Positions 7,338 to 54,467 of a DNA stretch of 64,000 nucleotides are shown here, piece after piece; position 1 is the stretch's first letter, and each line of letters starts with the position of its first letter. Both the position numbers and the translations under genes were made by a program. The DNA is from an uncultured Flavobacteriaceae bacterium (GTDB taxonomy: Bacteria; Bacteroidota; Bacteroidia; Flavobacteriales; Flavobacteriaceae): the NCBI GenBank assembly GCA_947494565.1, contig CANLVG010000005.1, positions 62,001-126,000 of the forward strand, written 5' to 3'. The notes below the pieces were generated by a model. That model did no database searches, had not been told where the DNA came from, and saw only the letters and a list, made by a program, of their open reading frames with translations.

Positions 7338-7348
7338 CACCTGAACCA

Positions 7349-7419
7349 AGAGGAAGGATTTGACTGATTGCAACCTCTAGACCCTGGAGCCTTCAGGGTG
7401 CAAAAATGCTAAAGCAGTT
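7349..7419 (+). promoter_or_regulatory. SAM-II (SAM-alpha) riboswitch
   Basis: All hallmark parts of the SAM-II class are seen. P1 is AGAGG (7349-7353) with CCTCT (7374-7378). The loop carries GATTTGAC and TTGCAA, and the 3' tail carries the invariant GCTAAAG (7408-7414). The pseudoknot forms between GACTG (7362-7366) and CAGTT (7415-7419). An extra hairpin, ACCCTG/CAGGGT (7381-7399), sits in the linker where the class tolerates insertions. SAM binding would stabilise the pseudoknot and lower metK expression. No terminator follows, and the start codon is 70 nt downstream, so the expression platform is unclear; control of translation is the likelier mode for this class. Confidence 0.87.
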
Positions 7420-7488
7420 GATACTAGCAAGCTACTATCACACTTCTCAAAGCATTACGGCCTATCCTTCGCAGATTTTTTGATTATT

Positions 7489-11430: not shown

Positions 11431-11460
11431 TGGTCTCAAAGTTCAAACACGTATTGAATA

Positions 11461-11580
11461 GTTATCAAGAAAGGTGGAGGGATTAGACCCTTTGAAGCCT
11501 TAGCAACCCTTGACTCCTCCCGATAGCTATCGGGATCAAGAAGGTGCTAAATTCTATCCGTTGATCAATGGGCAGATAAC
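11461..11580 (+). promoter_or_regulatory. SAM-I (S-box) riboswitch before metY
   Basis: Classical S-box sequence. P1 is GTTATC (11461-11466) with GATAAC (11575-11580). Then come AAGAAAGGTGGAGGGATT, the GACC...GAAGCC kink-turn/P2 region, TAGCAACC and AAGGTGCTAAATTC. The tip of P3 carries an 18-bp perfect palindrome (11518-11535). Downstream, AGATTGT (11588-11594) and ACAATCT (11599-11605) form a hairpin before a T-rich stretch ending CTTTTT near 11629, a plausible but weak expression platform. SAM should switch metY off. Confidence 0.95.
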
Positions 11581-11757
11581 GCAAAACAGATTGTTTATAC
11601 AATCTATTCGCTTTCTTATAACTTTTTGATTTAACCTTGCTGCAATGTCGGCTAGCTTGGGTTTGGCTTTTAATGATTTTTTGTGATTCCCGCGGAGGCG
11701 GAAATCTAGTAAGAACCAGTGTTCCAATAAAAAAACGGACGCGCAAAATGTACTATT

Positions 11758-28458: not shown

Positions 28459-28485
28459 TCCTTAGTTCATTAATACATTGAAAAC

Positions 28486-28634
28486 GTTATCAAGAAAGGT
28501 GGAGGGATTAGACCCTATGAAGCCTTAGCAACCCTTTAACTTTAAAGAAGGTGCTACGTTCTATCTTACCCTGACCCGAAGCTTTCGGATGCGCAGGACC
28601 AGTTCTAAATCGATTGGTTATTAAGACAGATAAC
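28486..28634 (+). promoter_or_regulatory. SAM-I (S-box) riboswitch before metH
   Basis: P1 is GTTATC (28486-28491) with GATAAC (28629-28634). The core contains AAGAAAGGTGGAGGGATTAG, GAAGCCTTAGCAACC and AAGGTGCTACGTTC, nearly identical to the metY copy. P3 here is short (CTTTA / TAAAG). The P4 arm is longer than in the metY copy. No convincing terminator follows before the start codon at 28712, so the mode of control is open. Confidence 0.94.
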
Positions 28635-47427: not shown

Positions 47428-47488
47428 GGTTAATTCTATTTTCTTGTTTAAGAATAATTGATTATCTTTAAACAAAAAAATAATGATA

Positions 47489-47950
47489 ATGAAAAAGATA
47501 GTTTTCAGCATGCTGTTTCTTTTAATGGGTGCTACTGCTTTACAGGCACAGGAAATAACTTCTTTTCCAGGGATGTGGGGGGAATCTTTTTACCAAGATA
47601 AGACCAAGCTCTCCTGGAAAGAGATAGACGCGATAATGAAAGAAAGCCAGGCGGCGGAAATGCATTGGCAAAAATCGAAAAAACAAGCACTCGGAGGACT
47701 TGTTTTCGGTGCGGCTAATTTTGGATCTGCCATATGGCTCTTATCTAACCTCGATAAGAATGAACCGCTAACAGGTCCGGCCATTGCTGTCGCTGGAACA
47801 GGTCTTATCGGTTCTATCTTTTTTCATTCTTCAATGAAGAACAAGAAAAAAGCTATATTGGAATATAATGACTCCTTAGATAAAAAAACATCATACCGTT
47901 TGGTTCCTACAAGTAACCAAAACGGTTTTGGTCTGGCTTTGAAGTTCTAG
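47489..47950 (+). CDS. Small exported membrane protein, intact paralogue of the 49.6 kb pseudogene
   Basis: A 153 aa protein with a signal peptide (MKKIVFSMLFLLMGATALQAQ), a short conserved stretch (EITSFPGMWGESFYQD), one or two hydrophobic segments (about residues 65-110), and the C-terminal NGFGLALKF. No known family. The same pattern, including QEIT, a YYQD-like motif and NGLGLALKF, recurs in the broken gene at 49582. The terminal strand might face the outer membrane. I use ATG 47489 rather than the one two codons upstream (47483). Confidence 0.65.
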   Translation: MKKIVFSMLFLLMGATALQAQEITSFPGMWGESFYQDKTKLSWKEIDAIMKESQAAEMHWQKSKKQALGGLVFGAANFGSAIWLLSNLDKNEPLTGPAIAVAGTGLIGSIFFHSSMKNKKKAILEYNDSLDKKTSYRLVPTSNQNGFGLALKF

Positions 47951-49581: not shown

Positions 49582-50073
49582 ATGAAAATTCTTAAGACCC
49601 AGCTACTACTGATTTTACTCGTGTTGTATGCTCCAAAAGTGATGGCGCAGGAAATTACGATGTTCTCAGGCTTCTGGGCTCCTGAGTACTATCAAGACGA
49701 TAAGAAGATAAACAAGAAAGAACTGGAAGCCCTGTTTATCAAAAATGACGAAGTACAATTACAATGGAAAAAGGCAAAGACATAGGAAACAGTGGCCGGA
49801 ATTGCAACTTTGGCCGAGCTTGGCCTTTTGGTTTGGGCCTATTCCGAAATCTTGGACGATCGCCGACCCAAAAACGAAAGGGCAGAAAGAGCTTTGGGTC
49901 CATTGGTAGGGTCACTGGGGTCGCTAGTAATCGGGGTGATTTACTTAACTAAGGCAAACCGGTCTAAAAAGAATGCTATTCTTACCTACAACAGGCAATT
50001 CGATAAACAGACTTCTTTTTATATCACTCCTATAGGGAATCAAAATGGTCTGGGACTGGCTTTGAAATTTTGA
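49582..50073 (+). pseudogene. Nonsense-mutated paralogue of the 47.5 kb gene
   Basis: The frame starting at 49582 (signal peptide ending VMAQ, then EITMFSGFW) stops at TAG 49783-49785 after 67 codons but continues in the same frame without other stops to 50073, ending NGLGLALKF. Aligned without gaps to the paralogue at 47489, the TAG falls exactly on a Gln codon (CAA in the paralogue), so a single CAG-to-TAG change is the simplest explanation. The reading frame after the stop is otherwise preserved, so the event looks recent, or the codon could be read through. Confidence 0.8.
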
Positions 50074-50133
50074 CGGGGATTGAAAAAAAATCAAAGGAAA
50101 ATAGAAATTCTAAATTAAATCATTACATTAGCC

Positions 50134-50141
50134 TAAGTTTA
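50134..50141 (+). promoter_or_regulatory. Possible -7 box of the phe leader
   Basis: TAAGTTTA differs from TAnnTTTG only in the last base. It would start transcription around the ATG of the leader peptide at 50150. Confidence 0.3.
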
Positions 50142-50149
50142 AGTGTATC

Positions 50150-50218
50150 ATGATAAAGCAATATTTTTTTAACGGTTACTTTTTTTACTTCTTTAAAAGA
50201 GGTGAGGGACTGTTATAA
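50150..50218 (+). CDS. Phe/Tyr-rich leader peptide of the pheA operon
   Basis: A 22-codon frame (ATG 50150, TAA 50216-50218) with Phe at codons 6, 7, 11, 12, 14 and 15 and Tyr at codons 5, 10 and 13, that is 9 aromatic residues among codons 5-15. It lies directly before the antiterminator/terminator pair and pheA, and its stop codon falls inside the antiterminator. This is the expected layout for ribosome-mediated attenuation by Phe- and Tyr-tRNA charging. Confidence 0.8.
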   Translation: MIKQYFFNGYFFYFFKRGEGLL

Positions 50219-50270
50219 TATATTGCAACAAGATATAGTATGGAAGTCCCGCAAAAGCGGGACTTTTTTC
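50204..50270 (+). promoter_or_regulatory. Transcription attenuator of the pheA operon
   Basis: Two exclusive structures are visible. The terminator is AAGTCCCGC (50244-50252) with GCGGGACTT (50257-50265), then Ts. The antiterminator is GGGACT (50206-50211) with AGTCCC (50245-50250), closed further inside by ATAATATAT (50215-50223) pairing with ATATAGTAT (50233-50241) at 8 of 9 positions. A ribosome stalled at the Phe/Tyr codons (50162-50194) leaves 50206-50241 free so the antiterminator forms. A ribosome reaching the stop codon covers it and the terminator forms. Confidence 0.85.
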
Positions 50271-50287
50271 GTTGATAGTTTGCTAGA

Positions 50288-51115
50288 ATGGGTTTAAAAA
50301 TTGCAATACAGGGTATCAAAGGGTCTAACCATCATCAGGTGGCGCTAGACTATTTTGGTGCTGATATAGAATTAGTGGAATGTTTGTCTTTTCATCAGTT
50401 GGTAGATGAGCTTCTTGAAGGTAGCGCTGACAAGGGAATTATGGCCCTCGAAAATTCGATAGCCGGTTCGATTATACCCAATTATGCATTGGTAGATGAC
50501 AATGGTCTACATATTATTGGGGAACACTATTTGAACATTCATCACCATCTGATGGTTCTGAAAGGGCAAAGTGTGAATGATATTGAAGAAGTGCGATCAC
50601 ACCCTATGGCGCTGTTGCAATGTCGCGAATATTTAAAGACCAAGCCCCATATTAAAATGGTCGAGGATGTGGACACCGCGGAGACCGCCAAGCAAATTAA
50701 GAAACACAATTTAAAGGGTATTGCGGCAATCGCACCTTCAGTTGCCGCCGAATTGTACGATTTGAACATCGTAGCATCCGACATACAGACCATTAAGAAT
50801 AACTCCACGCGATTTATCATTGTAAAGACAAAAAACAAGGAGATTGCCAAGACGGAAATCAACAAGGCTTCCGTACGGTTTAAAACCGATCATAAACGCG
50901 GAAGTTTGGCCGCTATGCTTAATGTTATGAGCGATTGCAATTTGAACCTGACCAAGATTCAAAGCTTGCCCATTATTGAGACACCTTGGAAATATGCTTT
51001 TTTTGTTGATGTGACCTTTCAGGGCTATGACAATTTTGAAAAGGCAAAATCATTGTTGAACATCATGTCGGAAGACTTCAAAGTATTGGGTGAATATAAA
51101 AATGGGAGGCTATGA
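50288..51115 (+). CDS. pheA: Prephenate dehydratase
   Basis: Converts prephenate to phenylpyruvate in phenylalanine synthesis. The 275 aa protein has the dehydratase domain (IAIQGIKGSNHHQVAL, ALENSIAGS, catalytic NNSTRF near residue 179) and a C-terminal ACT domain (from about residue 195) with SLPIIETPWKYAFFVD, so it is likely inhibited by Phe. There is no fused chorismate mutase; that activity lies in the DAHP synthase fusion downstream. It is the first gene after the attenuator and overlaps the aminotransferase by 4 bp. Confidence 0.95.
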   Translation: MGLKIAIQGIKGSNHHQVALDYFGADIELVECLSFHQLVDELLEGSADKGIMALENSIAGSIIPNYALVDDNGLHIIGEHYLNIHHHLMVLKGQSVNDIEEVRSHPMALLQCREYLKTKPHIKMVEDVDTAETAKQIKKHNLKGIAAIAPSVAAELYDLNIVASDIQTIKNNSTRFIIVKTKNKEIAKTEINKASVRFKTDHKRGSLAAMLNVMSDCNLNLTKIQSLPIIETPWKYAFFVDVTFQGYDNFEKAKSLLNIMSEDFKVLGEYKNGRL

Positions 51116-52257
51116 TAGAAACGGCCGATAGGTTAAAAACGGTTCAAGAATACTACTTCTCAAAAAAACTTAGGGAGGTACGGGGTCTTGTCGCTGAAGG
51201 TAGATCGATTATCAATATGGGTATTGGCAGCCCGGATCTTGCCCCCTCGGATGAGGTGATCGATACAGTAAAAAATGCCGTGACCGATGCGGGCGCCCAT
51301 CAATATCAGAGTTATCAAGGCCTGCCGGCTTTAAGAACGGCCATTGCCGATTTTTATCGATTAAAGTTCGATGTGAGGGTCGACCCTATGAACGAAGTAT
51401 TGCCTTTAATGGGATCAAAAGAGGGTATTATGCATATCAGTATGGCCTTTTTAAATCCTGGAGACGAGGCGCTGATTCCGAATCCCGGATATCCGACCTA
51501 CAATGCTGTGACGAAGTTGGTGGGGGGCGTAGGCAGAAATTATGATTTGATGGAAAATCGCAATTGGTTTCCTGACCTAGGGGCACTCGAAAAAGAAGAT
51601 CTTTCAAAAGTAAAGTTGATGTGGGTAAGCTATCCACATATGCCAACGGGCGCGACTGCAACGAAGCAGCAGCTCGAACAACTTGTTAATTTTGCAAAGA
51701 GGAAGAATATTCTACTGGTCAACGATAATCCGTATAGCTTTGTTTTAAGTCGAAACCCAACAAGTATTCTGAACATTGTTGGGGCAAAAGATGTCGCATT
51801 GGAACTGAATTCACTAAGTAAGACCTTTAATATGGCCGGTTGGCGTGTGGGCATGGTGCTCGGTAAGGCAGAACACATTCAATCGATACTTAAAGTGAAA
51901 AGCAATATGGATTCCGGAATGTTCTATGGCATTCAAAAAGGAGCCATTGCAGCCCTCAGAAGTGGTAAAGAGTGGTTTGATCGTCTCGATGAGGTGTATT
52001 CGTCTCGAAGAAAATTGATGTTCCAACTGGCCGATAAATTAGGTTGCTCTTATGATACCAATGCCGTCGGAATGTTTGTATGGGCGAAATTACCTGCTGG
52101 AAGCAAACCCTCCGAAGCATTCATTGACGATGTGCTGTACGATAAGAACATATTTATTGCGCCGGGAACCATTTTCGGTAGTAACGGCGAGGGGTATATC
52201 CGATTTTCCTTATGTGTCACTGAAGAAAAGATTGAAGAAGCTATAAAAAGATTTTAG
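51112..52257 (+). CDS. PLP aminotransferase of the aromatic operon
   Basis: A 381 aa class I/II fold-type I aminotransferase. The PLP lysine is in SLSKTFNMAGWRVG, with NPGYPTYNAV, WVSYPHMPTGA and NDNPYSF around the active site. The context (pheA before, tyrA after) suggests it makes Phe and Tyr from phenylpyruvate and hydroxyphenylpyruvate; the sequence alone is also like the LL-diaminopimelate-type branch, so other acceptors are possible. It is translationally coupled to pheA by ATGA overlap. A 151-bp gap before tyrA holds no clear signal. Confidence 0.88.
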   Translation: MIETADRLKTVQEYYFSKKLREVRGLVAEGRSIINMGIGSPDLAPSDEVIDTVKNAVTDAGAHQYQSYQGLPALRTAIADFYRLKFDVRVDPMNEVLPLMGSKEGIMHISMAFLNPGDEALIPNPGYPTYNAVTKLVGGVGRNYDLMENRNWFPDLGALEKEDLSKVKLMWVSYPHMPTGATATKQQLEQLVNFAKRKNILLVNDNPYSFVLSRNPTSILNIVGAKDVALELNSLSKTFNMAGWRVGMVLGKAEHIQSILKVKSNMDSGMFYGIQKGAIAALRSGKEWFDRLDEVYSSRRKLMFQLADKLGCSYDTNAVGMFVWAKLPAGSKPSEAFIDDVLYDKNIFIAPGTIFGSNGEGYIRFSLCVTEEKIEEAIKRF

Positions 52258-52408: not shown

Positions 52409-53269
52409 ATGAAAGTATTTATCATCGGTATCGGTTTGATCGGGGGTTCCTTTGCCAAGGATATCAAGCGCTTTGTGCCACAGGCGACCATCTATGGTAT
52501 TGACGCCAATGAGGCGCATTTGCAAGAGGCGTTATCCTTGAATCTCATTGACCATATTTCGAGCCATGAGGAGCTTGGTCTTGCGGACATGGTCATTGTT
52601 TCGATTCCAGTTGATGTCTTGGTGAGCGAGCTTCCTAAGATACTGGATGGCGTAAGCGATGATTGCGTGGTTTTTGATGGGGGGTCTACCAAAAGTTTGA
52701 TTTGTAGGTCCTTGGAAAATCATCCAAAGCGGAGAAATTACTTAGCGGCACATCCTATTGCTGGTACGGAGTTTTCTGGTCCTTCCGCAGCGGTAGAAGG
52801 CCTGTATGAAGGCAAGACGAATATCATCTGTGAAGTGGAAAAGACGGCTTTCAAATTACAGGAGAAGGCGTTGGCACTATTTCAGAAAATGGGAATGCGA
52901 ATTAGATATATGAATCCAGAAGCCCATGACAAGCACATCGCCTATGTTTCGCATTTGTCACACATCAGTTCGTTTATGTTAGGAAAGACCGTAATCGAGA
53001 AAGAAAAAAACGAACGCGATATTTTTGACATGGCGGGATCTGGTTTTGAAAGTACCGTTAGACTCGCAAAAAGCTCACCGGCAATGTGGACACCCATATT
53101 CGAACAAAATAAGGATAATGTCGTGGAAACGTTAAACGAGTATATTCAGAACTTGGAAGAATTTAAACAAATGCTCATACAAAATGACTATCAAGGCATT
53201 TATGACGAAATGAACAACACGAACAAAATCAGGGAAATATTAAATGGGATACCCTTGCATAATAAGTGA
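52409..53269 (+). CDS. tyrA: Prephenate dehydrogenase
   Basis: Oxidatively decarboxylates prephenate to 4-hydroxyphenylpyruvate, the tyrosine branch. The 286 aa protein has the NAD-binding GIGLIGGSFAKD (residues 6-17), the conserved GGSTK and HPIAGTEFSGP segment, and the catalytic-region HDKHIAYVSHLSH. No C-terminal ACT domain is present. It is in the same operon as pheA, so Phe and Tyr branches would be controlled together by the attenuator. Confidence 0.94.
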   Translation: MKVFIIGIGLIGGSFAKDIKRFVPQATIYGIDANEAHLQEALSLNLIDHISSHEELGLADMVIVSIPVDVLVSELPKILDGVSDDCVVFDGGSTKSLICRSLENHPKRRNYLAAHPIAGTEFSGPSAAVEGLYEGKTNIICEVEKTAFKLQEKALALFQKMGMRIRYMNPEAHDKHIAYVSHLSHISSFMLGKTVIEKEKNERDIFDMAGSGFESTVRLAKSSPAMWTPIFEQNKDNVVETLNEYIQNLEEFKQMLIQNDYQGIYDEMNNTNKIREILNGIPLHNK

Positions 53270-53325: not shown

Positions 53326-53385
53326 ATGGTGGAAAATAGTAACCTTTACCCTCCGCCTTTTACGCCTTCACCAAAAACAGAGTAA
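53326..53385 (+). CDS. Possible coupled small ORF before the DAHP synthase fusion
   Basis: A 19-codon frame from ATG 53326 to TAA 53383-53385, whose stop overlaps the DAHP synthase ATG (TAATG). It encodes five prolines, three in a row (YPPPF), which slow ribosomes unless EF-P helps. It may couple translation of the fusion gene to ribosome passage, or be a chance frame. Confidence 0.35.
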   Translation: MVENSNLYPPPFTPSPKTE

Positions 53386-54467
53386 TGGAGAATACAAAAG
53401 AAATGAGAACATGGTTGGATGATATGGGTTTAGATCATCCACTAGTAATAGCAGGACCATGTAGTGCAGAAACTGAAGAACAAGTGATGCGCATCGCTCA
53501 CGATTTAAAAGATACCGATGTCAACTATTATAGAGCTGGTATTTGGAAACCAAGAACACGCCCGGGAAATTTTGAGGGTGTGGGTGCGTTGGGCTTGAAA
53601 TGGCTTCAAAAGGTAAGAGAAGAAACAGGGTTGAAAACCGCTACCGAAGTTGCCAATCGAGCACATGTAGAGCTAGCTTTGGAGCATGATATCGATTTGT
53701 TATGGATTGGGGCCCGTTCAACAGTGAGTCCCTTCATTATGCAGGAACTGGCCGACGCACTGGCAGGCACTGATAAAATTGTACTGGTTAAAAACCCGGT
53801 GAACCCTGATTTGGCGCTTTGGTTAGGCGGAATTGAACGATTGCATACCGCAGGGATCAAAAAACTTGGGGCCATACATCGCGGATTTTCCACCTATGAG
53901 AAATCAAAGTATAGGAATATTCCAGAATGGCAACTGGCCATTGAGTTTCAAAATAGATTTCCTGATTTGCCCTTGATCAATGATCCATCGCACATTACAG
54001 GAAAGCGCGATATGATCTTTGACGTTTCGCAGACCGCTCTGGACCTGAATTTTGACGGACTTATGATAGAAACACATCATGATCCCGATAATGCTTGGAG
54101 CGATGCGGCGCAACAAGTAACTCCTGATAGATTGGTACAGATTATGGATGATTTAAAAATCAGAAAGGAAGACGACCCCGAAACGGAATACAACAGTCAG
54201 TTAAATGGACTTAGGGCACAGATCGATGTAATCGACAATCAGCTTATAGATACTTTGGGCAAACGTATGAAGGTCGCTGACGGTATCGGTAAATTGAAAA
54301 AGACCCGAAATGTTGCCGTACTTCAATCTAATCGGTGGAATGAAATTTTGGGAAAAATGATTCTAGAGGGTGAGACCAAAGGGTTGAGTGAAGAATTCGT
54401 GCTGCGTATGTTCAAAGCCATACACCAAGAGTCAATAAATCATCAAGAGAAGATTTTAAAGGCCTAG
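53385..54467 (+). CDS. DAHP synthase / chorismate mutase fusion
   Basis: The 360 aa protein starts with a type I-beta DAHP synthase (residues 1-265; VIAGPCSAE, YRAGIWKPRTRPG, RGFSTYEK, LINDPSHITGKRD), the first step of the shikimate pathway. A chorismate mutase of AroQ type follows (about 275-360; LRAQIDVIDNQLIDTLGKRMKVADGIGKLK). It thus joins the entry step to the branch point leading to prephenate. It is the last gene of the pheA-tyrA group, 115 bp after tyrA, and is followed by a strong bidirectional terminator. Confidence 0.95.
   Translation: MENTKEMRTWLDDMGLDHPLVIAGPCSAETEEQVMRIAHDLKDTDVNYYRAGIWKPRTRPGNFEGVGALGLKWLQKVREETGLKTATEVANRAHVELALEHDIDLLWIGARSTVSPFIMQELADALAGTDKIVLVKNPVNPDLALWLGGIERLHTAGIKKLGAIHRGFSTYEKSKYRNIPEWQLAIEFQNRFPDLPLINDPSHITGKRDMIFDVSQTALDLNFDGLMIETHHDPDNAWSDAAQQVTPDRLVQIMDDLKIRKEDDPETEYNSQLNGLRAQIDVIDNQLIDTLGKRMKVADGIGKLKKTRNVAVLQSNRWNEILGKMILEGETKGLSEEFVLRMFKAIHQESINHQEKILKA

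Follow-up and report, generated by a model that had tools for sequence, protein, structure and literature searches.

The pheA operon of an uncultured Flavobacteriaceae bacterium appears, with a probability of about 0.93, to be controlled by a ribosome-mediated transcription attenuator located before its first gene. The element lies on the forward strand of a 64,000-nucleotide stretch of DNA that was analysed as a whole (the window). Four features, all readable from the sequence, carry this interpretation: a leader open reading frame (ORF), selection acting at the level of its codons, three alternative RNA helices with covariation, and a link to the pheA–aminotransferase–tyrA–DAHP synthase/chorismate mutase operon.

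The first gene of the operon, pheA (50288–51115), encodes prephenate dehydratase (Pfam PF00800, 196.8 bits). It is followed on the same strand by a gene for a class I/II aminotransferase (51112–52257; PF00155), by tyrA, encoding prephenate dehydrogenase (52409–53269; PF02153 and PF20463), and by a gene for a DAHP synthase–chorismate mutase fusion (53385–54467; PF00793 and PF01817). The aminotransferase is probably aromatic-specific, to judge from its context. This set of enzymes indicates an operon for Phe and Tyr. Just upstream of the leader, at 49582–50073, a frame compared by eye resembles the ORF at 47483–47950 and contains an in-frame TAG (49783–49785); it looks like a decaying duplicate.

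Leader Peptide and Selection on Its Codons

The leader peptide ORF, MIKQYFFNGYFFYFFKRGEGLL, occupies positions 50150–50218 and consists of 22 codons and a stop. The first-pass annotation, made from the letters alone, had counted six Phe codons and three for Tyr in a 22-codon leader, and direct reading confirms it: Phe is encoded by codons 6, 7, 11, 12, 14 and 15 and Tyr by codons 5, 10 and 13, with the control codons spanning 50162–50194. The leader had also been said to end inside one half of a pair of exclusive structures. This agrees with the position of the motif GGGACT, the first strand of the antiterminator, which sits in the last leader codons; the stop codon (50216–50218) is directly beyond this strand. 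The clustering of Phe and Tyr codons expected of a leader-peptide attenuator is found both in the window and in relatives, where the aromatic leader recurs.

A set of 53 leaders shows how narrowly the codons are constrained. Of the 212 codons at positions −8 to −5 relative to region 2 (the antiterminator 5′ strand), 197 are TTT, TTC, TAT or TAC, and TTA and TTG do not occur. Base composition predicts about 25% Phe/Tyr at these codons, against the 93% observed. This excess bears on the reading of the site as an ordinary terminator, or a structured 5′ end, whose U-rich ORF is incidental and exerts no translational regulation. A U-rich sequence does favour Phe codons, but composition accounts for only the smaller of the two percentages, and shuffling of the 53 element-bearing upstream sequences (dinucleotide shuffles of sequences whose real versions were selected for carrying leader and terminator) gave the two together in 1 of 2120 cases. 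This is the least probable of the readings considered here.

Further controls were directed at chance and background. When the 420 bp before pheA in the window were put through 1000 dinucleotide shuffles, no shuffled sequence had a leader (at least nine aromatics in 14 residues) together with a terminator. Under loose criteria, both strands of the 80 loci of the wider survey described below (1.06 Mb) gave 13 matches, one of them the true pheA leader of locus L165, and both strands of the window (128 kb) gave two matches outside the leader. A model of the element, built on an alignment that includes the window and applied with 150 of 4093 first-look candidates scored, gave 22 matches in the bacterium's own genome (E up to 10); the pheA locus scored 112.1 bits and the next match 35.0.

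Conservation of the leader could instead reflect nascent-peptide arrest, as in TnaC, in which a specific leader peptide would bind free Phe or Tyr in the ribosome. The leader amino acids are indeed well conserved within the Maribacter-like group. The wider sample, however, keeps only the aromatic block while the remaining peptide varies, and the conserved GLL end is accounted for by RNA pairing of the same bases. Arrest of this kind is very unlikely.

Alternative Stems

Region 1 (50170–50193) is predicted by folding to pair with region 2, with 50170–50177 opposite 50208–50215 and 50183–50193 opposite 50197–50207. Region 2 provides the antiterminator 5′ strand, GGGACT (50206–50211), and region 3 the antiterminator 3′ strand, AGTCCC (50245–50250), which is shared with the 5′ arm of the terminator; folding and covariation support both strands. 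The intrinsic terminator, or 3:4 stem (50244–50269), is evident from direct reading and covariation. It consists of AAGTCCCGC (50244–50252), the loop AAAA and GCGGGACTT (50257–50265), with six T at 50264–50269. Both the antiterminator GGGACT/AGTCCC and the terminator with a T run, here with 9-nt arms, had been proposed in the first-pass annotation and are recovered here. A simple terminator scan did not list the terminator at 50244–50269, perhaps because A–T pairs extend into the T tract; separate custom scans detected it. The layout is that of an attenuator, with the 3:4 terminator between the leader and the first gene, a covarying 2:3 helix and a 1:2 stem over the control codons.

The predicted folds depend on how much of the leader is included. 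Over 50130–50275, the fold consists of the 1:2 stem and the terminator (−44 kcal/mol, z −5.3, none of 200 shuffles as good). For 50200–50275, the minimum-energy fold is the antiterminator with inner stems (z −3.2, 1 of 200 shuffles as good), whereas the centroid structure is the terminator form. The emergence of 2:3 as the minimum-energy form once region 1 is omitted matches what is expected with a ribosome on region 1.

Two additional helices are less certain. The inner stem that had been claimed for the antiterminator is present in the minimum-energy fold of 50200–50275 but is the weakest part in relatives: its 6-bp piece is paired in 69.5% of cells and, on some measures, does not outperform shuffles or slid controls, leaving the stem weakly suggestive. 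A possible outer helix around the 1:2 stem (50158–50226) is predicted between GCAATAT (50158–50164) and ATATTGC (50220–50226). Its own pairing beats permuted pairing (none of 3000 permutations did as well in either of two sets) and its column-wise covariation is unconvincing; this helix is likewise suggestive.

Covariation of the Helices

Column covariation was examined in 64 aligned sequences. The 1:2 and 3:4 helices together are paired in 94.0% of cells, and 9 of 23 pairs are changed on both sides. These both-side changes amount to 55 cells, against a shuffle mean of 14.5, and none of 500 shuffles had as many; the shuffle and permutation controls leave shared ancestry in. The first-pass annotation had suggested a search for compensating changes in related genomes, and they occur in all three helices. 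They are strongest in the terminator helix, which is paired in 99.5% of cells and has both-side changes at five of nine pairs (45 cells). In the 1:2 stem, the two helices tested are paired in 92.7% and 88.8% of cells; both-side changes are few (four pairs, 10 cells) and one pair is open in 28 of the 64 sequences.

The 2:3 helix is paired in 92.4% of cells, and both-side changes affect 14 cells, a count reached by none of 500 shuffles. Four of its eight pairs are changed in this way (8 of 500 shuffles had as many), and in the number of pair types 25 of 500 shuffles do as well. When region 2:3 duplexes were compared across 51 diverse loci, the mean energy was −12.6 kcal/mol with a locus's own partner and −8.0 kcal/mol with swapped partners; none of 5000 permutations was as good. 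The terminator core reads AGTCTC, ATCCCG, AGCCTT, CCCGGA or GACCGC in place of AGTCCC at some loci, and region 2 changes to match. Covariation of the antiterminator is a further point against a plain terminator with an incidental ORF.

Predicted Promoter and Proposed Mechanism

A possible −7 promoter box, TACATTAG (50124–50131), is located 26 nt upstream of the leader ATG. It has five of the six specified bases of TAnnTTTG, the flavobacterial promoter consensus given in passages of PMC9723704. Together with a −33 partner (TAG), the window motif has 7 of 9 consensus bases, which is weak; the promoter predicted here would place the transcription start near 50136–50139. Within 75 nt before the leader, at least eight of nine consensus bases are present at 37 of 53 loci (window included), against 9.7 expected from shuffles, and all nine at 17 of 53 against 0.6 expected. 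Bacteroidota-type motifs before the leaders make it unlikely that transcription starts beyond 50218, which the first-pass annotation had named as evidence that would count against an attenuator. A sigma-70-type candidate, TTTAAA-16-TATAAT (50192–50219), was rejected; it overlaps the 3′ end of the leader, and flavobacterial promoters are of the TAnnTTTG type according to the same passages of PMC9723704.

From these elements we infer promoter activity, translation of the leader, ribosome stalling and termination in the cell, together with the sensing of both Phe and Tyr. RNA polymerase would start just upstream of the leader ORF, with a ribosome behind it. Given ample Phe- and Tyr-tRNA, the ribosome at the stop codon (50216–50218) would cover region 2, the 3:4 terminator (50244–50269) would form and transcription would end before pheA. 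If charged Phe tRNA (or, presumably, Tyr tRNA) were short, the ribosome would stall in the Phe/Tyr block over region 1, GGGACT would pair with AGTCCC, and the operon would be transcribed with the terminator blocked. Without translation, the 1:2 stem would form and termination would be the default.

Amino Acids Probably Sensed

Sensing of both Phe and Tyr charging is the favoured reading, being the simplest account of the mixed codons. Phe and Tyr interchange at the same leader positions, and 52 of the 53 leaders contain both between codons −10 and −4. A sensor of Phe only, in which Tyr codons (UAU/UAC, one base from UUU/UUC) are tolerated and contribute little to regulation, would fit the higher number of Phe codons in the 53 leaders (280 vs 187 for Tyr). 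It would also fit the exception to the Phe and Tyr rule, genome G058 (83% complete), which has Phe-only leaders without Tyr and no tyrA nearby. Such a sensor does not readily explain the presence of both residues in nearly all leaders or the share of Tyr at codons −8 to −5, which is 24–43% (window counted twice), and codons for Leu, Ser, Cys or Ile, which also lie one base away from Phe codons, are nearly absent there. A Phe-only sensor is regarded as rather unlikely. In G058 (loci L158/L106), the two leaders, MNNLVSTFRFFGFFFFRKEGAMS and MNQNTQQNFSFFGFFFFKWKSEAVD, stand in tandem before pheA, a possible double attenuator.

The suggestion in the first-pass annotation that one attenuator could sense both amino acids thus stands as the favoured reading, but its reasoning from the presence of tyrA in the operon was too simple. 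Tyr codons do not depend simply on the presence of tyrA: nine operon-type loci have no tyrA nearby, and the leaders of eight of them retain 2–5 Tyr codons. Among these nine genomes, only G060 gave a TyrA elsewhere in a protein search. A TyrA family search gave weak partial matches in five more and none in G020, G025 and G058; the family matches in G137 and G155 are just above the curated cut-off, in frames of 426–468 aa. A phenylalanine-hydroxylase-family protein is encoded in all nine genomes and in 6 of 7 with an operon tyrA (15 of 16 overall). Since the hydroxylase is equally common with an operon tyrA, its presence discriminates nothing.

Occurrence in Relatives

Aromatic leaders are widespread in relatives, as the first-pass annotation had expected of a genuine attenuator. 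One set comprised the best 80 of 554 PheA matches, 74–89% identical and belonging to Flavobacteriaceae genera or to flavobacterial or Bacteroidetes assemblies; a Phe/Tyr-rich leader followed by a terminator is present at all 80 of these loci. In a set of 40 relatives, a script detected the leader in 36.

A wider survey covered 80 loci, each at most about 6.7 kb long, 31 of them from relatives and 49 from a phylum sample, in which two of the 31 also occur. The phylum-sample loci represent the same family (15), other orders of the class (17, all those with a match) and taxa outside the class (17 of 103 matching genomes). Loci were called operon-type if tblastn with window proteins matched an aminotransferase, TyrA, DAHP synthase or chorismate mutase near pheA. 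By this definition, leader and terminator are present at 59 of 62 operon-type loci and at none of the 18 pheA loci without detected pathway partners, a division in which divergent partners could be missed and two of the 18, L196 and L199, are incomplete loci.

Fifty-two of the 59 were found by the strict script and seven by a looser reading. The latter include five loci with a terminator stem of only three G–C pairs (L141, L142, L146, L155 and L176), one with an F/Y-rich leader starting with GTG (L134) and one with the element about 500 nt further upstream (L165). Three operon-type loci, L128, L132 and L159, have no element within 420 bp. In L128 (genome G133) and L132 (G167), another coding frame directly precedes pheA; here the attenuator may stand before a longer operon or may have been lost. 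In other orders of the class, 15 of 17 genomes, from five families, have the element (14 by script, and L134). The outside-class set contains one positive, L188 (genome G071).

Comparison with Known Attenuators

A whole-window scan with Rfam release 15 found no family at gathering score at the leader, T-box and riboswitch families included. Elsewhere, the window has one SAM-II and two SAM (S-box) riboswitches (7344–7422, 11459–11582 and 28484–28594). The element resembles the enteric pheA attenuator, Phe_leader (RF01859), in having a Phe-rich leader, alternative stems and a terminator before pheA, and the window matches across the whole model (1–125 of 125), albeit at 27.3 bits against a gathering score of 55. 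Among 20 relatives searched, six matched Phe_leader at E up to 0.5, the best at 34.3 bits. The window scores about equally with Leu_leader (27.6 of the 50 bits needed), so the Phe_leader match probably reflects shared architecture and not descent. Membership of either family was not accepted on these sub-threshold matches.

The enteric pheA leader is Phe-only, whereas the window leader mixes in Tyr codons and its operon also makes Tyr. In the thr (Thr/Ile) and ilv (Ile/Val/Leu) attenuators known from Proteobacteria, too, a single leader holds control codons for several of the amino acids that its operon makes.

Structured leaders of this kind are not without precedent in the phylum. Passages of a Flavobacterium psychrophilum transcriptome study (PMC9723704) describe a structured 5′ element before pheA and another before hisG; the pheA element is present in other Flavobacteriaceae genera, without an Rfam match, and the study reports strong clues that operons for amino-acid biosynthesis are preceded by leader-peptide attenuators. 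The window element has the same place before pheA in the same family, and novelty is limited accordingly. Beyond these passages, the present analysis adds the leader sequence, the Phe/Tyr codons, the alternative stems and the occurrence outside the family. In Bacteroides thetaiotaomicron, long 5′ UTRs hold short ORFs reminiscent of attenuation leader peptides, according to a passage in PMC7366714. The Phe/Tyr leader, its stems and its class-wide spread were not found in the open-access literature searched; an earlier prediction is possible (Lopatovskaya et al. 2010).

The same genome was examined at seven further amino-acid loci: hisG, trpE and a relative of it, two of the ilvD family and two for homoserine dehydrogenase. 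Leaders of this type are present at two of them, hisG and ilvD; the same script gave no convincing trp or thr leader at the seven loci. The hisG leader, MKNKNTHHHLSTGCQAR (locus L201, from 1198 on the plus strand, contig C11), has three His codons followed by a strong terminator and is probably a his attenuator. The ilvD leader, MKINKVVVNVLLIVP (L204, minus strand, 1083 on the reverse complement, contig C1), has nine Ile/Leu/Val in 15 codons and is followed by a 15-bp terminator stem. The match to the ilvD domain, likewise on the minus strand, follows some 400 nt further downstream; this leader is a probable branched-chain attenuator. The genome thus seems to use attenuation at other loci as well.

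Biological Significance

The type of switch is textbook; its wide recurrence is in a bacterial class with few prior descriptions. The odds appear even that this is an old, class-wide Bacteroidota attenuator acting as a two-input Phe/Tyr gate, in which a shortage of either aminoacyl-tRNA, read in a common control block, would release the entire operon and the Tyr input is kept even without tyrA. By conjecture, the input might be retained in such genomes because phenylalanine hydroxylase then makes Tyr from Phe.

The pheA element may act as a sensor of two amino acids and is a candidate for an Rfam family. It offers a detailed example, backed by covariation, of classical ribosome-mediated attenuation among bacteria whose mRNAs, in flavobacteria, are without Shine–Dalgarno sequences (passages of PMC9723704). 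Since an attenuator needs a ribosome close behind RNA polymerase, the element would provide a direct test of transcription–translation coupling in Bacteroidota.
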